Below the pieces are notes generated by a model, which saw only the letters and a list, made by a program, of their open reading frames with translations, had not been told where the DNA came from and made no database searches. A program made the translations under genes and the position numbers. A stretch of 64,000 bases of DNA from Aporhodopirellula aestuarii (GTDB lineage: Bacteria; Planctomycetota; Planctomycetia; Pirellulales; Pirellulaceae): the NCBI RefSeq assembly GCF_023701485.1, contig NZ_JAMQBK010000057.1:33229-97228 (forward strand), given 5' to 3'. Each line of letters begins with the position of its first letter. Within the stretch, counting starts at the first letter, position 1. This document shows positions 5,779 through 23,231 of this stretch, one piece after another.

Positions 5779-6510
5779 TTACAGAGGTCGCACCCGGATA
5801 TTGCGATACGAGACTTCGTCGTTGTGGTCTTGCAAGCAGATATGGCCCGTGGTCGCTTCGCCGAAGCCTTTCCACTTACCGAATTTGCTCTTTGCGACAC
5901 GCGCGTTCCAGTCGTCGCTGCCCTTGACGAACTCGCTGTAGAGCACGCCGTTCAATTCGATCTGGCATTTTTCGGGAGTGATGATCACGCGAAGATGGTT
6001 CCACTCTCCGGCTGGTTTGGCTGCATCGGTTTCGCATGGGTAGAGCTGGTAGAGCCAACCGCTTTTTTGCGCGTCGTGGCCGCCAACGTGATCTTGGATC
6101 TGGATCTCAGGGCCGGTGTAATACGGTGGTTTGTCGGTTTCAACAACATGGAACATCACGCCGCTGTTCGCCGCGGGGGTGACTTTGAAGTCGAGTTCGA
6201 GTTCGAAGGCGGCGAATTTTTCGCGAGTGATCAGATTTTCGTTGCGGGCGCCTTTGCCCTGCTCTTTCGCTGAAATGCAAGTGAGGGCTCCGTCGGCAAC
6301 TCGCCAACCAGTGGTCACCGAATCGTGGTTGTATTCACGCCACGCAGACAGTGACGCCGCGTCGGGGGAATTACCATCAAACAGCGTGATCCAGGGTGAG
6401 GGTTCCGTTGTCGTTTGTTCAGCGACGGAAGTGGAGCAGAGTTGTGTCGACCCAAGCAGGGCGGCGATCAACAAGGGCAGCAAAGCATGAAGGCGTGGCG
6501 TGCAACGCAT
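5779..6510 (-). CDS. DUF1080 (3-keto-disaccharide hydrolase-type) secreted protein
   Basis: This 243-residue protein has a signal peptide (hydrophobic residues about 8-25) followed by a DUF1080 concanavalin-like domain. Recognisable segments are WITLFDGNSPDAASLSAWR, FAAFELELDFKVTPAANSGVMFHV, GPEIQIQDH, and the terminal GHICLQDHNDEVSYRNIRVRPL. The C-terminal segment is the usual end of this very common planctomycete family. Members cleave or bind oxidised (3-keto) sugars or related glycans outside the cytoplasm, and many are uncharacterised. The length matches single-domain members. It is followed by a perfect terminator and has no co-transcribed neighbour. Confidence 0.92.
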   Translation of the reverse strand: MRCTPRLHALLPLLIAALLGSTQLCSTSVAEQTTTEPSPWITLFDGNSPDAASLSAWREYNHDSVTTGWRVADGALTCISAKEQGKGARNENLITREKFAAFELELDFKVTPAANSGVMFHVVETDKPPYYTGPEIQIQDHVGGHDAQKSGWLYQLYPCETDAAKPAGEWNHLRVIITPEKCQIELNGVLYSEFVKGSDDWNARVAKSKFGKWKGFGEATTGHICLQDHNDEVSYRNIRVRPL

Positions 6511-14723: not shown

Positions 14724-15488
14724 GTGCTCGGTTTCGTGTCGTCGTCTACTTCCGATGGATTCCCAGTGCAGTCTTTGCCGGTCCGCGGCCGGTTGGTGCA
14801 GGTGCAGGATTCGTTGTCGGATTGCCCGTACATCGATGCAACGGTCGCGCGAATGCCTCTGCACTACCCGATCAGAGGGCTCAGCGGCGCGGACGTCGAT
14901 ATGTTGCTCGACGGAGGTTTTCGTCGCAGCGGCACGCTGTTGTATTACACGCGGTGTGCTCCCTGTCACGCGTGCGAGCCGACTCGGATCGAAGTGTCCA
15001 GGTTCCATCTCAGCGGTTCATTTAAGCGTGTGCTCCGCCGGGCTGAGAATGAACTCACGATGACCTGGCAATTGCCTGCCGTCGATGAGCAGCGGGTGGC
15101 ACTTTACAACAAACATCGGGCGGAACGGGGCCTCGGTACCAGTCCCGCGATCGGCGTGTCCGAGTATCAGTCGTTCTTGACCGATTCGTGTTGGCCGACA
15201 CTCGAATTGGAGATCCGCAAGGGCGATCGATTGATCGGAGTGTCGATCATGGACGTCGGCGACAACAGCATCAGCGCGGTGTACACGCATTTCGATCCCG
15301 ATGCCTCACGATACAGCCCCGGGACACTGGCCGTGTTGAAGCAAATTCAGTGGGCATCGCAGCACAACCGTCGCTGGGCGTACTTGGGTTTGTACGTGAG
15401 CAGCAACCCGCACTTGAACTACAAGGCTCGATTTCTGCCTCAGCAGCGAATGCGTCACGGGAAATGGGAAGAAATCGATCGCGGTTAA
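14724..15488 (+). CDS. bpt: Aspartate/glutamate leucyltransferase (Bpt, arginyltransferase family)
   Basis: This protein of about 254 residues matches bacterial Bpt, an ATE-family enzyme that moves leucine from Leu-tRNA to proteins with N-terminal Asp or Glu and so marks them for ClpS/ClpAP degradation (N-end rule). Family features are YIDATVARMPLHYPI, the Cys cluster TRCAPCHACEPTRI (C78, C81, C84), which in relatives is linked to metal or Fe-S binding, FKRVLRRAENEL, and SAVYTHFDPDASRYSPGTLAVLKQI with YLGLYVSSNPHLNYKARF near the end. The frame begins at GTG 14724; the true start could be slightly later because the first 15 residues are not conserved in appearance. It acts in the cytoplasm. 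Confidence 0.92.
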   Translation: MLGFVSSSTSDGFPVQSLPVRGRLVQVQDSLSDCPYIDATVARMPLHYPIRGLSGADVDMLLDGGFRRSGTLLYYTRCAPCHACEPTRIEVSRFHLSGSFKRVLRRAENELTMTWQLPAVDEQRVALYNKHRAERGLGTSPAIGVSEYQSFLTDSCWPTLELEIRKGDRLIGVSIMDVGDNSISAVYTHFDPDASRYSPGTLAVLKQIQWASQHNRRWAYLGLYVSSNPHLNYKARFLPQQRMRHGKWEEIDRG

Positions 15489-15606: not shown

Positions 15607-15888
15607 ATGAGTGAAGACGATATCAACTTCGATGACGAGTCAAACGAAACGAGTTTGTCGAGCGGGGCGTTCGACGACGACGCAAATCTCGCGCATGTTG
15701 ACGAGGATGCCACTTACATCTGCGACAATTGCGGCGAGGAAATCGTGATTCCGGTGGACCTGGCTGGTGGGCAGGATCAAACCTACGTCGAAGACTGTCC
15801 GGTGTGCTGCAGTCCGAGCGTGATCCATGTGCACGTCGATGACGATCATGTCGATGTGCGTGCCGAACCCGAACAGGACCGTTTTTGA
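15607..15888 (+). CDS. CPXCG-type cysteine-rich small protein
   Basis: This 93-residue, very acidic protein has two Cys pairs, CDNC (C39, C42) and CPVCC (C64, C67, C68), separated by a short hydrophobic strand. This is the layout of the CPXCG cysteine-rich family, presumed to bind one zinc ion. The acidic N- and C-terminal arms are probably disordered. Its function is unknown; the family is often found as small conserved genes next to unrelated enzymes. It ends 4 bases before the comB-like start, so it is probably co-transcribed with comB, the ATP-grasp gene and the M20 gene. It could be a metal-dependent accessory or regulator. Confidence 0.85.
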   Translation: MSEDDINFDDESNETSLSSGAFDDDANLAHVDEDATYICDNCGEEIVIPVDLAGGQDQTYVEDCPVCCSPSVIHVHVDDDHVDVRAEPEQDRF

Positions 15889-15892
15889 TCTG

Positions 15893-16783
15893 ATGCAAAT
15901 TGAAACTTGGTTGTGTCCCTCTGCGGTCGCTGATCATGAGCGATCCCGGGCTCGCGTCTGTGTTGTGATCGATGTACTACGGGCGACGACGGTGATCACC
16001 ACCGCGATTGCGGCGGGAGCTCGATCCGTGACGACCTGTTTGGACATCGAGCAGGCATGGGAGATCAAACGAAACGCGGATCCGGACAACTCGCCGTTGT
16101 TGTGTGGTGAACGCGCCTGTCGACCGATCGAAGGATTCGACTACGGGAACTCGCCGAGTGAGTATTCACCGGCGGGAGTGAGTGGTCGTGAGCTTGTGAT
16201 GACGACGACCAACGGCACGCGGGCGATTGAGGCGGCGTCGGACTGCGACGTGATGATGTTGGCATGCTTCGCAAACCTCAGCGCGGTGGCCGATGCGATC
16301 ATCAGTGAAATGTCGGTCGGTTCGGAATCGAGTGCTGCGCCAAACCGGCAGTCTGACGCGACCGAGCAAGCAGGCCCGACCGAGCAGATGGCCGGCAGCG
16401 AACCGGTCCAGACCTCAGGTCGGTTGCGGATCGTCTGTGCCGGCACGGACGGCGCTGTGACGGGAGAAGACGTTTTGTTGGCGGGAGCATTGATCGCGGT
16501 CTGCCATCGAAAACTCAGCGATACGGCTCGGTTCTATGAGGGGCCGATTGATCTCGTCAATGATTCCGGTGCGATCGCGTTGGCTGCGTGGCAACACTGC
16601 ATCACGCATGACAAGGTAGTGGATTCCGATTCGTTGGCCCGTCGTCTGGCAATGACAGACGGTGGGCGGAACATGGTCGCCGCTGGATACGAACAGGACC
16701 TCGTTGATTGTGGTAGCATCGACGTGTTTGACAGTGTCCCGCAACGTGATCGTGTTTCCCCGGCAAGGTTCGTTCTACGATGA
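15893..16783 (+). CDS. comB: 2-phosphosulfolactate phosphatase family protein (ComB-like)
   Basis: This 296-residue protein has the ComB fold signatures: CVVIDVLRATTVITTAIAAGARSV near the start with the catalytic-site Asp-Arg, LLCGERACRPIEGFDYGNSPSEY in the middle, and VMTTTNGTRAIEAA. ComB removes phosphate from 2-phosphosulfolactate to give sulfolactate, in coenzyme M synthesis in methanogens and in sulfolactate formation in some bacteria. A disordered insert rich in Ser, Ala, Glu and Gln (about residues 142-180) interrupts the domain before LRIVCAGTDGAVTGEDVLLAGALI. The start at 15893 sits 4 bases after the CPXCG gene, and the stop overlaps the ATP-grasp start in an ATGA. No comA or comC is visible, so the phosphatase substrate is an assumption. 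Confidence 0.88.
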   Translation: MQIETWLCPSAVADHERSRARVCVVIDVLRATTVITTAIAAGARSVTTCLDIEQAWEIKRNADPDNSPLLCGERACRPIEGFDYGNSPSEYSPAGVSGRELVMTTTNGTRAIEAASDCDVMMLACFANLSAVADAIISEMSVGSESSAAPNRQSDATEQAGPTEQMAGSEPVQTSGRLRIVCAGTDGAVTGEDVLLAGALIAVCHRKLSDTARFYEGPIDLVNDSGAIALAAWQHCITHDKVVDSDSLARRLAMTDGGRNMVAAGYEQDLVDCGSIDVFDSVPQRDRVSPARFVLR

Positions 16784-18198
16784 ATCCCTCGACTCCCGTC
16801 GATAGCCCGCACTTCGTAGATACTCACGGACAGATGCCGCCGATGTGGCCACGTCGAGCCATCTTCTTTGCGAATCTTCTGGGGCTGTTTTTTGGTAACG
16901 AGGCGCAGACGCGCGAGCTCAGCAAGGAGGTCGGGGAACTCGATTCCTATAGCGCCCGTTTGATTCCGATCTTAGATTTGCTGTTTGAAGGCCCCGACAA
17001 CGTGTTGGTCGTCGAACGTCAACCGGATCAGGCGTTGTGTGATTACTTGTCCAACGATTTGAGGCTTTCGTTGCCGCGGATTTGCGTGTTGTTGCATGAG
17101 GAATACGTTCGCTTGGGGCGGTTGCTCGCGGAGAGTCCTGAATCGCCACTAAGCGACTTGTTGGACGCGGACCATCCTTTGGCGTCAATCGAGGTGGACG
17201 CGACCGAGACGTGGGCGGATGGGTATGTTACTGACGCGGTCTTGCCGCAGATCGCTGGTCGGTTGGGGTGTCGTACGATTTCTTCGACGCGCGCCAGTCA
17301 AGACGGCAACAACAAAGGATTGTTGCACCGGTTTCTCGTCAGCCAGGGTTTGCCTACGGTTGCGACGGAGTTCGCCGACGGGCCTGATGACGTTCGCGCT
17401 TGCGCCGAGCGGTTGCGCGATCAAGGGTTTGCCAGTGCCGTCGTGCGATCACAAATCGGTGCGTCCGGTGTCGGGATGATGAAATTGGCGGATCTGGGGG
17501 CTCTCGATTCGCTGCCCGCGGTGCCCGCCTATTTCTTTCACGAAGGCCCCTGTTTGGTACAAGGTTGGTTGTCACCGGGAATGATGGGGATCACCAATAT
17601 TCTCAGCCCGAGCACGCAATTGTTTTTAGATGAAGATCACGTCTATGCCTTCGACATGACAGAGCAAATCCTGAGTGAGCACAATATCCACGAAGGAAAT
17701 GAGTCACCGCCTCCGTACCTTGATCGTCTTCCCAACTTGCGTGATGAAACCATTCGGCAGGCCAAGGTGGTCGGGCGATGGCTCCATGAGACCGGGTACC
17801 GGGGAACGGCTAGCATCGATTGGTTGGTCGTTGAGCGTGAAGGCAAGTCCGAACCCGATGTGTACGTTTGCGAGATTAACGCGCGAGTAACCGGCGCGAC
17901 GTATCCGTCTTTGTTGGCTAAGTATTTCCGTCCGTCAGGTGCGTGGTTGCTGCGGAACCTACGTTTGGCTCAACCGGTCACCTCTGCGGTTTTGTTGCGG
18001 ACATTGGAAGAACGGGGACACCTGTTTCATTTGAAAGGTCGCGCCGGTGTGCTGCCTCTGAATTTTAACTTCGGTCGTGATGGTCTCGTTCACAAAGGAC
18101 AGTTTATTTGCATCGGAGCGGATTCGCAGGAGTGTCACCGCTTCCTAAGTCAAGCCGAAGCGGACTTGCCGGGCGGTTGGATTGCCGACCGCGATTAG
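16780..18198 (+). CDS. ATP-grasp ligase with a pre-ATP-grasp domain (PGM1-like)
   Basis: This 472-residue protein looks like an ATP-grasp carboxylate-amine ligase. An N-terminal domain (about 25-160, beginning RRAIFFANLLGLFFGNE) resembles the pre-ATP-grasp domain. The central ATP-grasp fold has the nucleotide loop VVRSQIGASGVGMM (221-234) and the metal-binding VCEINARVTGATYPSLL with E365 and N367. The C-terminal segment (about 405-465, GRAGVLPLNFNFGRDGLVHKGQFICIG) resembles the C-terminal domain of PGM1, the pheganomycin peptide ligase. The family joins a carboxylate to an amine through an acyl phosphate. Overlap with comB and proximity to an M20 hydrolase suggest one pathway. The substrate is unknown and the PGM1 likeness is by eye. 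Confidence 0.8.
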   Translation: MNPSTPVDSPHFVDTHGQMPPMWPRRAIFFANLLGLFFGNEAQTRELSKEVGELDSYSARLIPILDLLFEGPDNVLVVERQPDQALCDYLSNDLRLSLPRICVLLHEEYVRLGRLLAESPESPLSDLLDADHPLASIEVDATETWADGYVTDAVLPQIAGRLGCRTISSTRASQDGNNKGLLHRFLVSQGLPTVATEFADGPDDVRACAERLRDQGFASAVVRSQIGASGVGMMKLADLGALDSLPAVPAYFFHEGPCLVQGWLSPGMMGITNILSPSTQLFLDEDHVYAFDMTEQILSEHNIHEGNESPPPYLDRLPNLRDETIRQAKVVGRWLHETGYRGTASIDWLVVEREGKSEPDVYVCEINARVTGATYPSLLAKYFRPSGAWLLRNLRLAQPVTSAVLLRTLEERGHLFHLKGRAGVLPLNFNFGRDGLVHKGQFICIGADSQECHRFLSQAEADLPGGWIADRD

Positions 18199-18258
18199 CC
18201 GGGACGGTCTGTCCCCGGCAACGTTAGCATCCTTAATTCTTCGAACGACGGTACACCT

Positions 18259-19398
18259 TTGTCAGCCACCAACGATCATGAAAGCCTGAAGTCGCGTTTA
18301 ACATCTCTGACTCGTGATATGATTTTGATCCCGAGTACGGAAAGCCGTCCCGATGAACGGACGCGATGTTTCGAGTTTCTACGCCACCATCTCGATGCGA
18401 GCGAAGGTTTGCGGCTCGATCGATATGAGCGGAACGGACATCAATCCTTAGTCGTCCGCCCGGTTGATTGTGAATCGCCTGAGGTCCTGCTGTGCGGGCA
18501 TCTCGACGTGATCGAACATTCCGAGCGTGATGGTTACCATTCCCATGTCGAGAACGGGCGGATTTATGGTCCCGGAAGTGGGGACATGAAGGGGCAAATC
18601 GCGATCATGGTGGAGTTGATGAAGTCGCTGCACCGCCGTCATCCCGGCGCCAGTGTGGGGCTTGCGATTACGTCGGATGAAGAGCGTGGCGGTGCCGACG
18701 GTGTGCGGTTTTTGATCGAGGACGTTGGGTTGCGATGTGGCGTGGCAATCATCCCCGACGGCGGTTCGCTGTGTGATATCACCGTCGAAGAGAAAGGCGT
18801 GATTCACGCGAGAATCACGCAGACGGGGCGTGAGGGACACGGTGCACGTCCTTGGCTCGGTGAAAATGCGATCGAGCGGTTGTTGATAAGGCTCTCTCGA
18901 TTGGGAAACCATTTCGCCACGTATTGGCCTTCCGAGCCGATCGAAGAGCAGGTCAACCATTGGTTTCCGACGTGCAGCATCACGATCTGTGAGACTGAAA
19001 ATACGACAGTGAACCGCATTCCCTCGAGGGCGTCCGCGGTCGTCGATATTCGTTTTCCGCCGCCGCATGATGTTGCGTCGATGATGGCGGAAGTCACCGA
19101 CGTGCTCGGGCCAGGGTGTACGGTCGAACCGCTGATGACCGCCGAGCCGACTCATTTAGCTCCCGATCCATTGTTCCGTCGTGCGACCGAAGAGGTCACC
19201 GGTCAACCGGTTGCGATGGTGCGTGCTTCCGGCGGGAGTGATGGCCGCTTTTTTCGTGCGCACAACATTCCCGTAAATTTGTCGCGGCCGTTCGTCGGGA
19301 ATTTGCATTCGATCGATGAATGGATTGATATCGAATCGATGGTGACCTACTACCGGATTTGCAAGCGGTACATCGCGAGCCGGCTGTCGCTCGATTGA
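18259..19398 (+). CDS. M20-family metallohydrolase (ArgE/DapE/CPG2-like)
   Basis: This protein of about 379 residues is a zinc-dependent amidohydrolase or aminopeptidase of family M20. Metal and catalytic residues are readable: H81 and D83 in [11 protein letters not shown], bridging D109 in [10 protein letters not shown], catalytic Glu and ligand in TSDEERGG (E141, E142), D167 in IIPDGGS, and a terminal His in NLHSIDEW. The dimerisation or lid domain spans about 180-290. The start appears to be TTG at 18259, which keeps the helix before ILIPSTES; an ATG at 18319 would remove it. The gene follows the ATP-grasp gene by 60 bases, with a small imperfect hairpin (18199-18218) between. It may trim, deacylate or hydrolyse the ligase product or a precursor. 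Confidence 0.88.
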
Positions 19399-19407
19399 GG
19401 CACGCCT

Positions 19408-20706
19408 TTAGGGTGCCGGGGCGCTTTTCACGCTGACCAGGTGTTGTTCCTCTTGTCGATGCGATTGCCGTCGTTGCACGAGTAGTCGCATCATTTCATC
19501 GGCGCTGCCCTGGGCAAGTTCCGCGATCTGTCTCGGTTGGGTAGCGTCGCCGAATTCGTAAGTAACCGCGGCGACGTCGAGGGTGTCGCGAACCCACGCT
19601 TTGGATGTGCAGCGGTTGGCATTGTGGTTTAAGTCGTGATTGACGTTGTACCACGAAAACCTTTGTTGCAATGCGTCGAGCCAAGACGAGGTGAAGTTCT
19701 GCGGGAAGGCTTGGTCCACGTCTTCGGCGGTGTAGAAAACGTCTTCGTAGGTCGAGTGGAAATCAAGGAACAGATACAGCGACCGTCGTCCCGTCGAGCG
19801 ATAGCTGAGCAGTTCATTTCGCAGCGCCCGCGTTTCCGGTTGTGTGAAATGTTTCCAGTCGCGGTTGAGATCGACTCCGGCCGCGTTACACCGCCAGTGA
19901 CCACGGGCGACGCCGTCGGGGTTGGCCGTCGGGATCACCACCGTGCTGAATTCTTGGCGGAACTGTGACGCGCGAGAGGTCTTTGCCGAGATCGCTTCGA
20001 CAAACCGCATCAAGCCGAGCATGCCGGAGATCTCGGTAGGGTGTTGGCGGGCCATCAGGAAAATTGTCGCCGCGGATGACGATTCGCTGATCTTGAGTCG
20101 GCGGATCGGGCGATTCTCGACGGAGTATCCGATCACGTCCTGTTGGACGTAGTCGCGTTTTGCAATCTCGTTGATCCACCGATCGACTTCGGTATTAGTG
20201 ATCAATTGGCGGGCAGAAACCCACAATGGTTTGGTGTCAGCTCGGATCTTGAGGATTGCCTGCTTTCCAAACGGATGAACGGCGGTGATGAGCCGTTCGG
20301 CGGGAAACCAAGTTTCGCCATCGTGGCTGATCAAGGGTGAGTATCGGTGTGACCCGCCGTCGTAGCGGAGTCGAATGGTGAGGTCGCACGCCCGGGTCGC
20401 GCGGACTTGGAACGCGTACCACGCGCTATCGTTGATCGGGGTTTGTTCCGGTCGGATTACAAGATCGAATTCTTGGGGGCCGATTTGCACACACTGGTTA
20501 ACTCGTCCGCCGGGGAAGTCGCTGCGGATACACACGCTTTGATCTTCAGAAACAAAGCGGATCGCCGACCTGTCTCGGTTGCTGTCGTAGTTGGGGTCAA
20601 ACGCATGAACCGGGCCCGCCTGCAAGATCGCTACAATCGCCATCATCGATGCGAAGGCTCGGATACCCGCTGGAACGCCGAGACGAGAGAGTGTGAAGGC
20701 TTGCAT
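19408..20706 (-). CDS. Secreted M14 zinc carboxypeptidase (cytosolic-carboxypeptidase-like clan)
   Basis: This 432-residue protein has a signal peptide (cleavage likely after VHA, about residue 35), an N-terminal beta domain like those preceding M14 domains of the CCP/AGBL type, and a peptidase M14 domain from about 170. Zinc ligands H222 and E225 (ARQHPTEISG), H317 (FLDFHSTYED), substrate-binding NR at 281-282 (GVDLNRDW) and catalytic E384 (TYEFGD) are all present, so it should be active. It likely trims C-terminal residues or cleaves peptide branches outside the cytoplasm. It converges on the M20 gene with 9 bases between; its own upstream region holds a large inverted repeat. Confidence 0.9.
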   Translation of the reverse strand: MQAFTLSRLGVPAGIRAFASMMAIVAILQAGPVHAFDPNYDSNRDRSAIRFVSEDQSVCIRSDFPGGRVNQCVQIGPQEFDLVIRPEQTPINDSAWYAFQVRATRACDLTIRLRYDGGSHRYSPLISHDGETWFPAERLITAVHPFGKQAILKIRADTKPLWVSARQLITNTEVDRWINEIAKRDYVQQDVIGYSVENRPIRRLKISESSSAATIFLMARQHPTEISGMLGLMRFVEAISAKTSRASQFRQEFSTVVIPTANPDGVARGHWRCNAAGVDLNRDWKHFTQPETRALRNELLSYRSTGRRSLYLFLDFHSTYEDVFYTAEDVDQAFPQNFTSSWLDALQQRFSWYNVNHDLNHNANRCTSKAWVRDTLDVAAVTYEFGDATQPRQIAELAQGSADEMMRLLVQRRQSHRQEEQHLVSVKSAPAP

Positions 20707-21030: not shown

Positions 21031-22800
21031 CTAGAAATCGCTCAATTCCATCCATTTTTCTTCCGCTTCGCTCAATTCGACTTCAATCGCTTTGATCTGA
21101 TCGTGGAGGCGAACGGCATCGGTGGGATCGGTCTCGGTGAGCAGTTTCTCGTTGAGTTCTCGTTTTTCGTCGTCGAGTTTGGCGATCTTTCGTTCGAGGT
21201 TTCTGAGTTCTTTGCCGGTCTTGCGCTGATCTTTCTGCTGTTTCTGCTCGTTCTTGGACGCGCTGTTGTTGGAGGTCGATTTGCCGGCCGCTGCGTTGCG
21301 TTGGCGTTCCCCCTCGGAGACTTCTTTTTCCACCGCTTCGCAATAGGTGTCGTAGCTGCCGAAGTAATTGCGGACGCGTCCGTCGCGGACTTCGATGACG
21401 TTGGTCGCGACGCGGGCCATGAAGTGCCGGTCGTGACTAGTGAAGATGACTGTTCCCTTATACAGACGCAGGGCTTCGGCGAGGGCTTCGACGGTTTCGA
21501 CATCGAGGTGGTTACCGGGTTCGTCGAGGACGAGCACGTTTGCCGTTCCCAGCAGCAGGCTCGCCATGCAGACGCGGGCACGCTCGCCACCGCTGAGCAC
21601 TTTGATTTTCTTCTGGATGGCTTCGTCTCGAAAAAGGAGAGCGCCCGCCATCGCTAGCACGTCTTGCCGGGTCGTTTCCGGATCGGAGGCGTATTCGAGA
21701 TGTTCGAGGATGGTTTGTCGTTCATCAAGGCTGCTGTAGACGTGTTGGGCGTAAGTCCCGATTTCGATTCCGTGGCCCCATTTGACTGTTCCGTCGAGCG
21801 GTTCGAGCGAGTGGACGAGGGTCCGCAGCATGGTCGTCTTGCCTTGGCCGTTGTCACCGACGATGGCCGCTCGCTGACCGTGTTCGATCTCCAGTGAGAT
21901 GTCTTCGGCGACACGGTTGCCGGGGTATCCGATGGCGAGTTGTTCGCAGCGAACGGCGGTGCCCTGGCGGGGCTGGACGCGCGGGGCGCGGATATTGACG
22001 GTGGGTTCGTCGACTTGCAGTTCGACGGTTTGCAGTTTTTCGAGTTGTTTGGCTTTGCTGCGAGCTTGGCTGGCCGTGGACGCGTTGGCTCGGTTCTTTT
22101 CGATGAACTGCTTGAGTTGTTTTTGTTTGGCGATGACGGTGGCGTTGACGCGTCGGTCGTGTTCCCGGCGTTCCTCGCGGAATTCGAGGAAGTCGTGGAT
22201 CTTGCCTGGGAACATCGTCAGTTGCCCCTTGCTGAGTTCGAGGGTCTGGCTGCAGGTGGCCCGCAGGAAGGCTCGATCGTGGCTGACAATAAGGGCGGCT
22301 TTGTTGAAATCTCTGAGGAAGTGTTCGAGCAGGATCTGGGTGCGAAGGTCGAGGAAGTTGGTCGGTTCATCGAGCATCAGCAGGTTGGGATCGTGCAGCA
22401 GGAGTGCGGCCAATTTGACGCGTGTCTGCCATCCACCTGATAGCGCTTTGACGGGACCTTCGAGATATTGGCCCTTGAGCTCAAATTGGCCGGCGACTTG
22501 GCCGCATTGCCATTCGGGCGCGCCGCTGTCACGCATCAAGAAGTCGAGAGCCGATTCGCCCTCTTGGAACGGATCGTGTTGGCGGAGGTATCCGATTCGC
22601 AACGTCGGGTGGTGAATCACTTCCCCTTTTTCAACGTCTTCTTCGCCGAGCAGGATCCGCAGAAGGGTGGACTTTCCGGCGCCGTTGCGTCCGACGAAGC
22701 CGACTTTGACATCGTCGACTAGGCTGACGTTGGCTCCATCCAGGAGGACTTGATCACCGAAGCGTTTGTGAGCGTCGCGGAGTTGGATCAGAACAGCCAT
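21031..22800 (-). CDS. ABC-F family ATPase (Uup/EttA-like)
   Basis: This 589-residue cytoplasmic protein has two ABC ATPase domains and no membrane segment. It has Walker A motifs GRNGAGKST and GDNGQGKTT, signatures LSGGW and LSGGE, and Walker B motifs LLMLDEPTNFLD and VLVLDEPGNHLD. The linker between them contains the Lys/Arg/Gln-rich helical arm typical of ABC-F proteins. The C-terminal 75 residues form a charged coiled coil (starting near KNEQKQQKDQRK), as in Uup, which binds DNA or ribosomes. ABC-F proteins act on the ribosome or on nucleic acids, not as transporters. The ATG at 22800 is preferred to the upstream start at 22833, because it gives the usual N-terminus MAVLIQLRDAHKRFG. Confidence 0.93.
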   Translation of the reverse strand: MAVLIQLRDAHKRFGDQVLLDGANVSLVDDVKVGFVGRNGAGKSTLLRILLGEEDVEKGEVIHHPTLRIGYLRQHDPFQEGESALDFLMRDSGAPEWQCGQVAGQFELKGQYLEGPVKALSGGWQTRVKLAALLLHDPNLLMLDEPTNFLDLRTQILLEHFLRDFNKAALIVSHDRAFLRATCSQTLELSKGQLTMFPGKIHDFLEFREERREHDRRVNATVIAKQKQLKQFIEKNRANASTASQARSKAKQLEKLQTVELQVDEPTVNIRAPRVQPRQGTAVRCEQLAIGYPGNRVAEDISLEIEHGQRAAIVGDNGQGKTTMLRTLVHSLEPLDGTVKWGHGIEIGTYAQHVYSSLDERQTILEHLEYASDPETTRQDVLAMAGALLFRDEAIQKKIKVLSGGERARVCMASLLLGTANVLVLDEPGNHLDVETVEALAEALRLYKGTVIFTSHDRHFMARVATNVIEVRDGRVRNYFGSYDTYCEAVEKEVSEGERQRNAAAGKSTSNNSASKNEQKQQKDQRKTGKELRNLERKIAKLDDEKRELNEKLLTETDPTDAVRLHDQIKAIEVELSEAEEKWMELSDF

Positions 22801-23231
22801 GAATTGAAAAAATATGAAGGAAATTGAAAGCAACGGGAAAACGAAGTCGGGCCCGACAACGTAGCGAGAAAGACGAAAAAGTTCACCCGCTCTTGTCTAC
22901 CCACTCAGGCGTTCGGTGCGTAAAGTATCCAGCCACCGATACTGCGACAAAATAAATCCCCGCAATTCGCTTTGTGAATAGCCCCCGGCCGTAAAAAAGC
23001 TCTGCCAAAGCCCTGCAAAATCCCAGTCCACCCCTCGTTGCTGCAGTTTTGTAGCTGCCGAGGATGTTTTGCATCCGCCAAACGTGATTTGCTGTGCGTC
23101 CTATCCTGAAACGCACCTGACGTCCTATGATCAGTCGCTTTCTAAGTTTTCTTGCCTTTTAAAGCTAAACCTCTCTCCCTTCGAAGCCAACTCGGCGTTG
23201 CCGTCATCCGGTTCAACCGCCGCCCTCGCTC
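22801..23231. other. Divergent promoter region of the ABC-F gene and sucA
   Basis: This 431-base gap between two divergent genes is richer in A+T than its surroundings, especially near 22960-23170. It should carry promoters for both. I found no convincing gene, hairpin terminator or recognised operator in it. Confidence 0.5.

Follow-up and report, generated by a model that had tools for sequence, protein, structure and literature searches.

Do four genes that lie head to tail in a planctomycete genome serve one pathway, or do only some of them belong together? The window (the whole stretch of DNA that was analysed, 64,000 nucleotides of Aporhodopirellula aestuarii, from a genome of 9.07 Mb) carries, in this order, genes for a cysteine-rich CPXCG protein, a ComB-like phosphatase, an ATP-grasp protein and an M20 hydrolase. 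The original prediction read all four as a single pathway. We found that the recurring unit is a two-gene module made of the ATP-grasp ligase and the M20 hydrolase, because the M20 gene accompanies the ligase gene in 25 of 25 orthologous loci while CPXCG and comB do so in only 5, comB occurs independently of the pair, and ComA was found in none of the 13 genomes of the genus. Thus, the joining of ATP-grasp and M20 in one pathway has gained support, but comB and CPXCG are not its constant members.

The ligase and the M20 hydrolase in the genomes

Orthologs of the ATP-grasp gene were collected from four sources: 40 relatives of the host, 392 genomes of its phylum, 84,980 species searched by a pattern scan, and 337 genomes from the phylum to which G430, a Verrucomicrobiota genome, belongs. 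The pattern scan used six peptide patterns from the window's ATP-grasp protein, reaches near relatives only and returned 8 loci. The profile searches covered two phyla, the host's own and that of G430, and we make no claim that the gene is restricted to these. The ligase was present in 6 of the 392 genomes of the host's phylum (the host included, a remote match in G374 not counted) and in 9 of the 337 genomes of the other (G430 included). Removal of repeats and of three remote matches left 25 orthologous loci, a genome with several locus identifiers being counted once. The remote matches set aside were those in G016 (L018, 27% identity) and G374 (L027, query residues 315-387) and a second match in G430 (L094); in the 16 kb of L018 and of L094 the M20 search gave nothing below E 2.9. 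Relatives of the ligase were found in none of 50,697 phage records and in one of 72,556 plasmid records, the latter a Streptomyces PGM1-related protein with 25.4% identity. Among the matches listed by literature searches directed mostly at ATP-grasp enzymes, we found no account of the ligase-M20 gene pair in the open-access literature.

In each of the 25 loci an M20 ortholog lies directly downstream of the ATP-grasp gene on the same strand; the count includes G492, where the M20 gene is cut by the contig end. Among the 40 relatives, both genes occur in the same seven genomes, the host's own included (M20 accepted at E up to 1e-30, the remote ATP-grasp match of G016 set aside). The trees of the two proteins are also similar and share the same 14-row and 8-row groups. 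These three results bear out the predicted link between ATP-grasp and M20. The original prediction had taken a ligase gene that occurs without its comB and M20 partners as a sign against a common pathway. Such separation was found for comB, since 20 of the 25 loci lack it next to the pair, but not for M20.

The 14-row group consists of Rhodopirellula and its kin, a Phycisphaeraceae metagenome-assembled genome and five Verrucomicrobiota, and in both trees G021, which belongs to the same family as the window, is placed outside this group. Its support is 100/98 (starred) in the ligase tree and 88/91 (not starred) in the M20 tree, and the trees contain several weak forks and some long rows. In the ligase tree the starred branches require the Verrucomicrobiota label to change at least twice, and in the M20 tree only once. 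These label changes, together with the thin distribution of the genes, suggest, rather than show, horizontal spread of the pair.

No third family recurs in more than 5 of 28 fetched loci, a survey whose greedy sets of open reading frames (ORFs) miss some genes. The 28 loci include two remote homologs, and two of the 28 come from one genome. The commonest other families were comB and a response-regulator-like family, each in 5 loci, and all others were seen in 3 or fewer. The response-regulator-like family was named by eye and is not adjacent to the pair. Because no other constant partner was found, the two purified proteins may be sufficient to find the metabolite.

The place of comB and CPXCG

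The CPXCG protein, which is small, acidic and zinc-ribbon-like, matches Cys_rich_CPXG (PF14255) with 63.3 bits (cut-off 25.2), and the ComB protein matches 2-ph_phosp (PF04029) with 187.5 bits (cut-off 26.4). With the M20 protein described below, all three families named from the letters alone are therefore above their Pfam cut-offs. The ComB protein matched 8 NCBIfam models, each below its curated cut-off, and its equivalog scores fell short (TIGR00298, 84.5 against 175.05; NF002054, 142 against 330).

Conservation of the four-gene order across Pirellulaceae had been named as a check on the pathway idea. Among the 25 loci, CPXCG and comB precede the pair in the window and in four other genomes of its genus, and nowhere else. 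A comB match was present in 35 of the 40 relatives: of the 7 that have the pair, 6 gave a match, and of the 33 that lack it, 29 did. G021, which has the pair and is one of these relatives, gave no comB match. Neither did the pair-bearing genomes of loci L014, L015 and L016, whose completeness is not stated. In Rubripirellula obstinata (L011), which also has the pair, comB lies on another contig. CPXCG and comB are side by side in 7 of 8 genomes of the window's genus that lack the ligase, and also in G023, which belongs to another genus. We have accordingly rejected comB and CPXCG as constant members of the pathway, because only in one genus do they lie next to the pair, comB occurs with or without the pair, and the 13 genus genomes gave no ComA match. 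A role for CPXCG as a carrier of the LysW type was also considered and judged unlikely, as the pair has no adjoining CPXCG gene in 20 of the 25 loci.

ComB is known from the coenzyme M and sulfolactate route, and the window resembles that route in that a comB-like gene adjoins the pair in its own genus. It is unlike it in that comB is unlinked to the pair elsewhere and ComA is missing from the 13 genus genomes searched. The same search matched ComA in 1 of the 40 relatives, and the control matched 2 of 14 named genomes. The ComA result thus gives no sign of phosphosulfolactate as the substrate, and nothing in our results points to a sulfonated product. The sulfonate chemistry that had been predicted by way of ComB is undercut by this result and by the three pair-bearing loci without a comB match in their genomes. 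On these results comB looks to be a local neighbour and is probably not a part of the module.

Within the genus, the pair sits behind comB in all five genomes that have it, and in two of these blocks (G006 and G008; loci L074 and L019) the surrounding genes differ from those of the window. The four genes have thus been kept together through a rearrangement and may well be co-transcribed there. The simplest account would be that the pair arrived once behind an existing CPXCG-comB, in the ancestor of the five genus members. Besides the window, the block CPXCG-comB-ligase-M20 is found in genus members at L074, L019, L075 and L020.

Two enzymes and one putative amide

No Pfam or NCBIfam model matches the ATP-grasp protein above its cut-off; PreAtp-grasp, at 16.6 bits where 27.5 are required, is a weak match. 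PF18604 matches 11 of 14 family members at E up to 0.1, with a best value of 1.6e-6, and the window's protein is below its cut-off. In the AlphaFold2 model of the protein (predicted local distance difference test, pLDDT, 85.5; predicted template-modelling score, pTM, 0.86) the first 18 Foldseek rows are all 8ynd or 8ynq, a Streptomyces ATP-grasp peptide ligase, or 3wvr or 3wvq, which are PGM1 (E 1.5e-20 to 3.4e-17; template-modelling (TM) scores of 0.57-0.66 by query length). By sequence, hmmsearch reached the same two ligases at E 0.0018 and 0.02, and no others under E 0.1. The predicted structure thus agrees with the PGM1-like ATP-grasp fold that had been proposed. The window's protein shares with these ligases the overall fold, the layout of a pre-ATP-grasp and an ATP-grasp part, and stretches of the form GYRG...D and EINAR...G that align. 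It differs from them in that identity in the fold alignments is 13-18%, in that it lies below the Pfam cut-offs, and in that its family is paired with M20, with no shared precursor-like ORF found.

The predicted ATP-grasp catalytic residues K179, E365, N367 and R369 are present. They are invariant in 14 of 14 rows of an alignment with 62% mean column identity, as is R471-D472 at the C-terminus. In ATP-grasp enzymes these four are catalytic residues. The invariant Arg-Asp pair lies at the very C-terminus (window positions 18190-18198) and may reach into the ligase active site. PGM1 is described in a passage of PMC8939145 as joining an unusual amino acid to a small core peptide. Because the fold matches PGM1-type peptide ligases, the natural inference by analogy is that the window's ligase would form an amide by way of an acyl-phosphate.

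The M20 protein matches Peptidase_M20 (PF01546) with 89.3 bits (cut-off 24.6) and the dimerisation domain with 54.6 bits (cut-off 21). These scores, together with the fold matches, support its reading as an M20 amidohydrolase. The metal ligands H81, D109, E142, D167 and H350 and the catalytic glutamate E141 are present in 17 of 17 rows, as are D83 and H194. Among the best 25 of 48 NCBIfam models matched, the protein was below every curated cut-off; the best DapE or ArgE equivalog model gave 155.9 bits against 381. Its model (pLDDT 90.1) retrieved 2rb7, an uncharacterised Desulfovibrio protein, at the head of the Foldseek list (TM 0.85), followed by DapE, ArgE and carboxypeptidase G2, with carnosinase CN2 appearing from row 29. 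With 2rb7 it shares the M20 fold, the metal site and an HGARPW stretch, with DapE the fold, the metal site and a G-S-D-G-R-F-like stretch, and with ArgE the fold and the metal site. D167 aligns with an Asp in 2rb7 and with the Glu of Gly-Glu-Pro in the DapE rows, so that the window's enzyme has an Asp where DapE has a Glu ligand. The ligand at the position of Asp195 in CN2 is likewise an Asp (D167), which may hint at dipeptide-like substrates.

By analogy, carnosine synthase and carnosinase offer a case in which an ATP-grasp ligase and an M20 dipeptidase work in opposition: there the ligase makes a dipeptide and the dipeptidase cuts it, and the kinds of metal ligand in the window's M20 protein are those of CN2. 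A title in the reference list of PMC6271292 names carnosine synthase as an ATP-grasp protein. The likeness is one of logic, and the M20 protein is unlike CN2 in that CN2 comes behind 2rb7, DapE, ArgE and carboxypeptidase G2 in the fold search. Both protein folds and, from carnosine, the ligase-hydrolase logic are already known. Our analysis adds the naming of a compact, patchily distributed ligase-hydrolase pair, with a ligase that in the window is below every Pfam cut-off, and it shifts the focus away from comB and a sulfonated product.

We propose, with a confidence slightly better than even, that the pair makes and breaks the same amide. The ATP-grasp enzyme would activate a carboxylate with ATP, as an acyl-phosphate, and join it to an amine to give a dipeptide-like amide. 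The M20 enzyme, with its bound metal pair, would hydrolyse the same amide or one derived from it. The cell could in this way store or neutralise building blocks as an amide and then recover them. In the window's own subclade the pair may share a transcript with CPXCG-comB without sharing its chemistry. Under this proposal rest the constant pairing in the loci found, the co-occurrence, the similar trees, the PGM1-type fold of the model and the complete M20 metal site. As the ligase and M20 genes are paired, their products probably act on the same small molecule. From these results we infer that the two enzymes share one bond as their target and that the product would be dipeptide-like; it may serve in storage, as a compatible solute or as a detoxified or signalling conjugate. 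A further idea, which we regard as possible but doubtful, is that planctomycetes and verrucomicrobia use the PGM1-fold ligase to make a new metabolite, an amide or a dipeptide, which the dedicated M20 partner takes back, and that some lineages with M20 alone live off the compound of their neighbours.

Several results weigh against the making and breaking of one amide. In the sample of the host's phylum, M20 was found in 8 of the 392 genomes (E up to 1e-40) against 6 for the ligase, the two extra genomes being G339 and G401. G339 cannot be judged for the ligase, as its contig begins about 60 bases before the M20 gene. In G401, the M20 ortholog (L110:3269-4381) has an unrelated gene upstream and conserved surroundings, its downstream neighbours being those of relatives that have the pair. 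No ligase match was found in this genome, which is 88% complete, even at E 1; the same query matched 9 of 337 genomes, and an empty answer without a positive genome carries little weight. Since G401 has M20 without a ligase match, the hydrolase can persist without the ligase. Moreover, 3 of the 25 loci carry a broken ligase gene, and the adjoining M20 gene is open in all three. G416 has a TGA at the otherwise invariant Trp23 (L028:9232-9330), G412 a frame shift (L031:10400-10560), and L016 a frame shift together with a TGA at the nearly invariant Trp145 (6180-6400). These breaks may reflect decay or assembly error. The structural evidence has its own limits: the TM-scores of the ligase are moderate, with root-mean-square deviations of 4.7-6.5 Å in the first 18 rows, and the M20 protein is nearer, by sequence and by fold, to 2rb7 and the DapE and ArgE deacylases than to carnosinases. 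Nor is the Asp at position 167 alone a mark of a dipeptidase, because a passage of PMC6271292 places carboxypeptidase G2 among the proteins that keep the same Asp as CN2. As a separate observation, the TGA codons of G416 and L016 each stand where relatives carry a conserved Trp.

The main rival is that the ligase adds a protecting or carrier acyl group to an amine, other enzymes act on the conjugate, and M20 then removes the group, as happens in the gamma-glutamyl-putrescine route and the LysW carrier route. The best support comes from G021 (L017:5090-10544), where a fucP-like major facilitator superfamily (MFS) transporter gene, the ligase gene, the M20 gene and an aldehyde dehydrogenase gene form a tight row on one strand, with overlaps at the ligase/M20 and M20/dehydrogenase junctions. 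The dehydrogenase comes closest to succinate-semialdehyde dehydrogenases (547.7 bits) and to aminobutyraldehyde dehydrogenases (444.9 bits), in each case below the cut-off. The [LysW]-lysine hydrolase model matches the window's M20 protein weakly, at 49.1 bits against a cut-off of 363, and CPXCG is small, acidic and zinc-ribbon-like; both observations point the same way. However, G021 is the single locus of the 25 where an aldehyde dehydrogenase gene was seen next to the pair among the neighbours scanned, no such family recurs, and the absence of CPXCG beside the pair in 20 loci makes it unlikely as a required carrier. We consider such a route of protection and release unlikely.

Still less probable, in our judgement, is a peptide natural product of the PGM1 type, in which the ligase would couple a ribosomally made or small peptide to an unusual acid, with trimming by M20. 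The ligase fold fits this idea, and among the neighbours scanned at least 3 of the 25 loci (G021, G620 and G384) have a gene for an MFS transporter on the strand of the pair and no more than 250 bases from it. However, no short ORF (15-90 amino acids, up to 1200 bases away in both directions, contig ends permitting) was common to more than two lineages, although a fast-changing or distant gene would escape this search; of 63 short-ORF clusters, 45 belong to the window's genus, 16 link two genomes out of G361, G384 and G412, and 2 are two-member cross-lineage pairs. PGM-like tailoring genes were not noted among 40 neighbour and homolog proteins scanned with Pfam. We give very little credence to the idea that comB, CPXCG, the ligase and M20 together form one pathway for the amide of a sulfonated or phosphorylated hydroxy acid. 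The position of the pair right behind comB throughout the genus, even where the surroundings differ, speaks for it; the 20 loci without an adjacent comB, the four pair-bearing genomes (G021 and those of L014, L015 and L016) without a comB match, the missing ComA and the failure of the ComB protein to reach any NCBIfam cut-off speak against it.

The reading frames of the window

The coordinates of the four genes confirm the head-to-tail order that had been described (see the table). CPXCG and comB are separated by 4 bases (15889-15892), comB and the ATP-grasp gene overlap by 4 bases in ATGA (16780-16783), and 60 bases (18199-18258) lie between the ATP-grasp and M20 genes. The ratio of nonsynonymous to synonymous substitutions (dN/dS) against G003 was 0.036-0.073 across the four frames, with dS near saturation; because of these low values, all four look like real genes. 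At the TTG start of the M20 gene, a Met at the same residue opens the M20 proteins of G003 and G012.

Table. Genes of the four-gene block in the window.
Feature	Position	Strand	Remarks
CPXCG zinc-ribbon protein gene	15607-15888	+	PF14255 match; goes with comB rather than with the ligase-M20 module
comB, ComB-like phosphatase	15893-16783	+	PF04029; neighbour in own genus only, probably outside the module
ATP-grasp carboxylate-amine ligase, PGM1-like fold	16780-18198	+	472 amino acids; module core
M20 di-metal amidohydrolase	18259-19398	+	379 amino acids; TTG start; module core

The block is flanked by what we take, by eye, to be an arginyl/leucyl-tRNA-protein transferase-like gene (14724-15488), an M14 carboxypeptidase-like gene (19408-20706) and an ABC-F ATPase gene (21031-22833).

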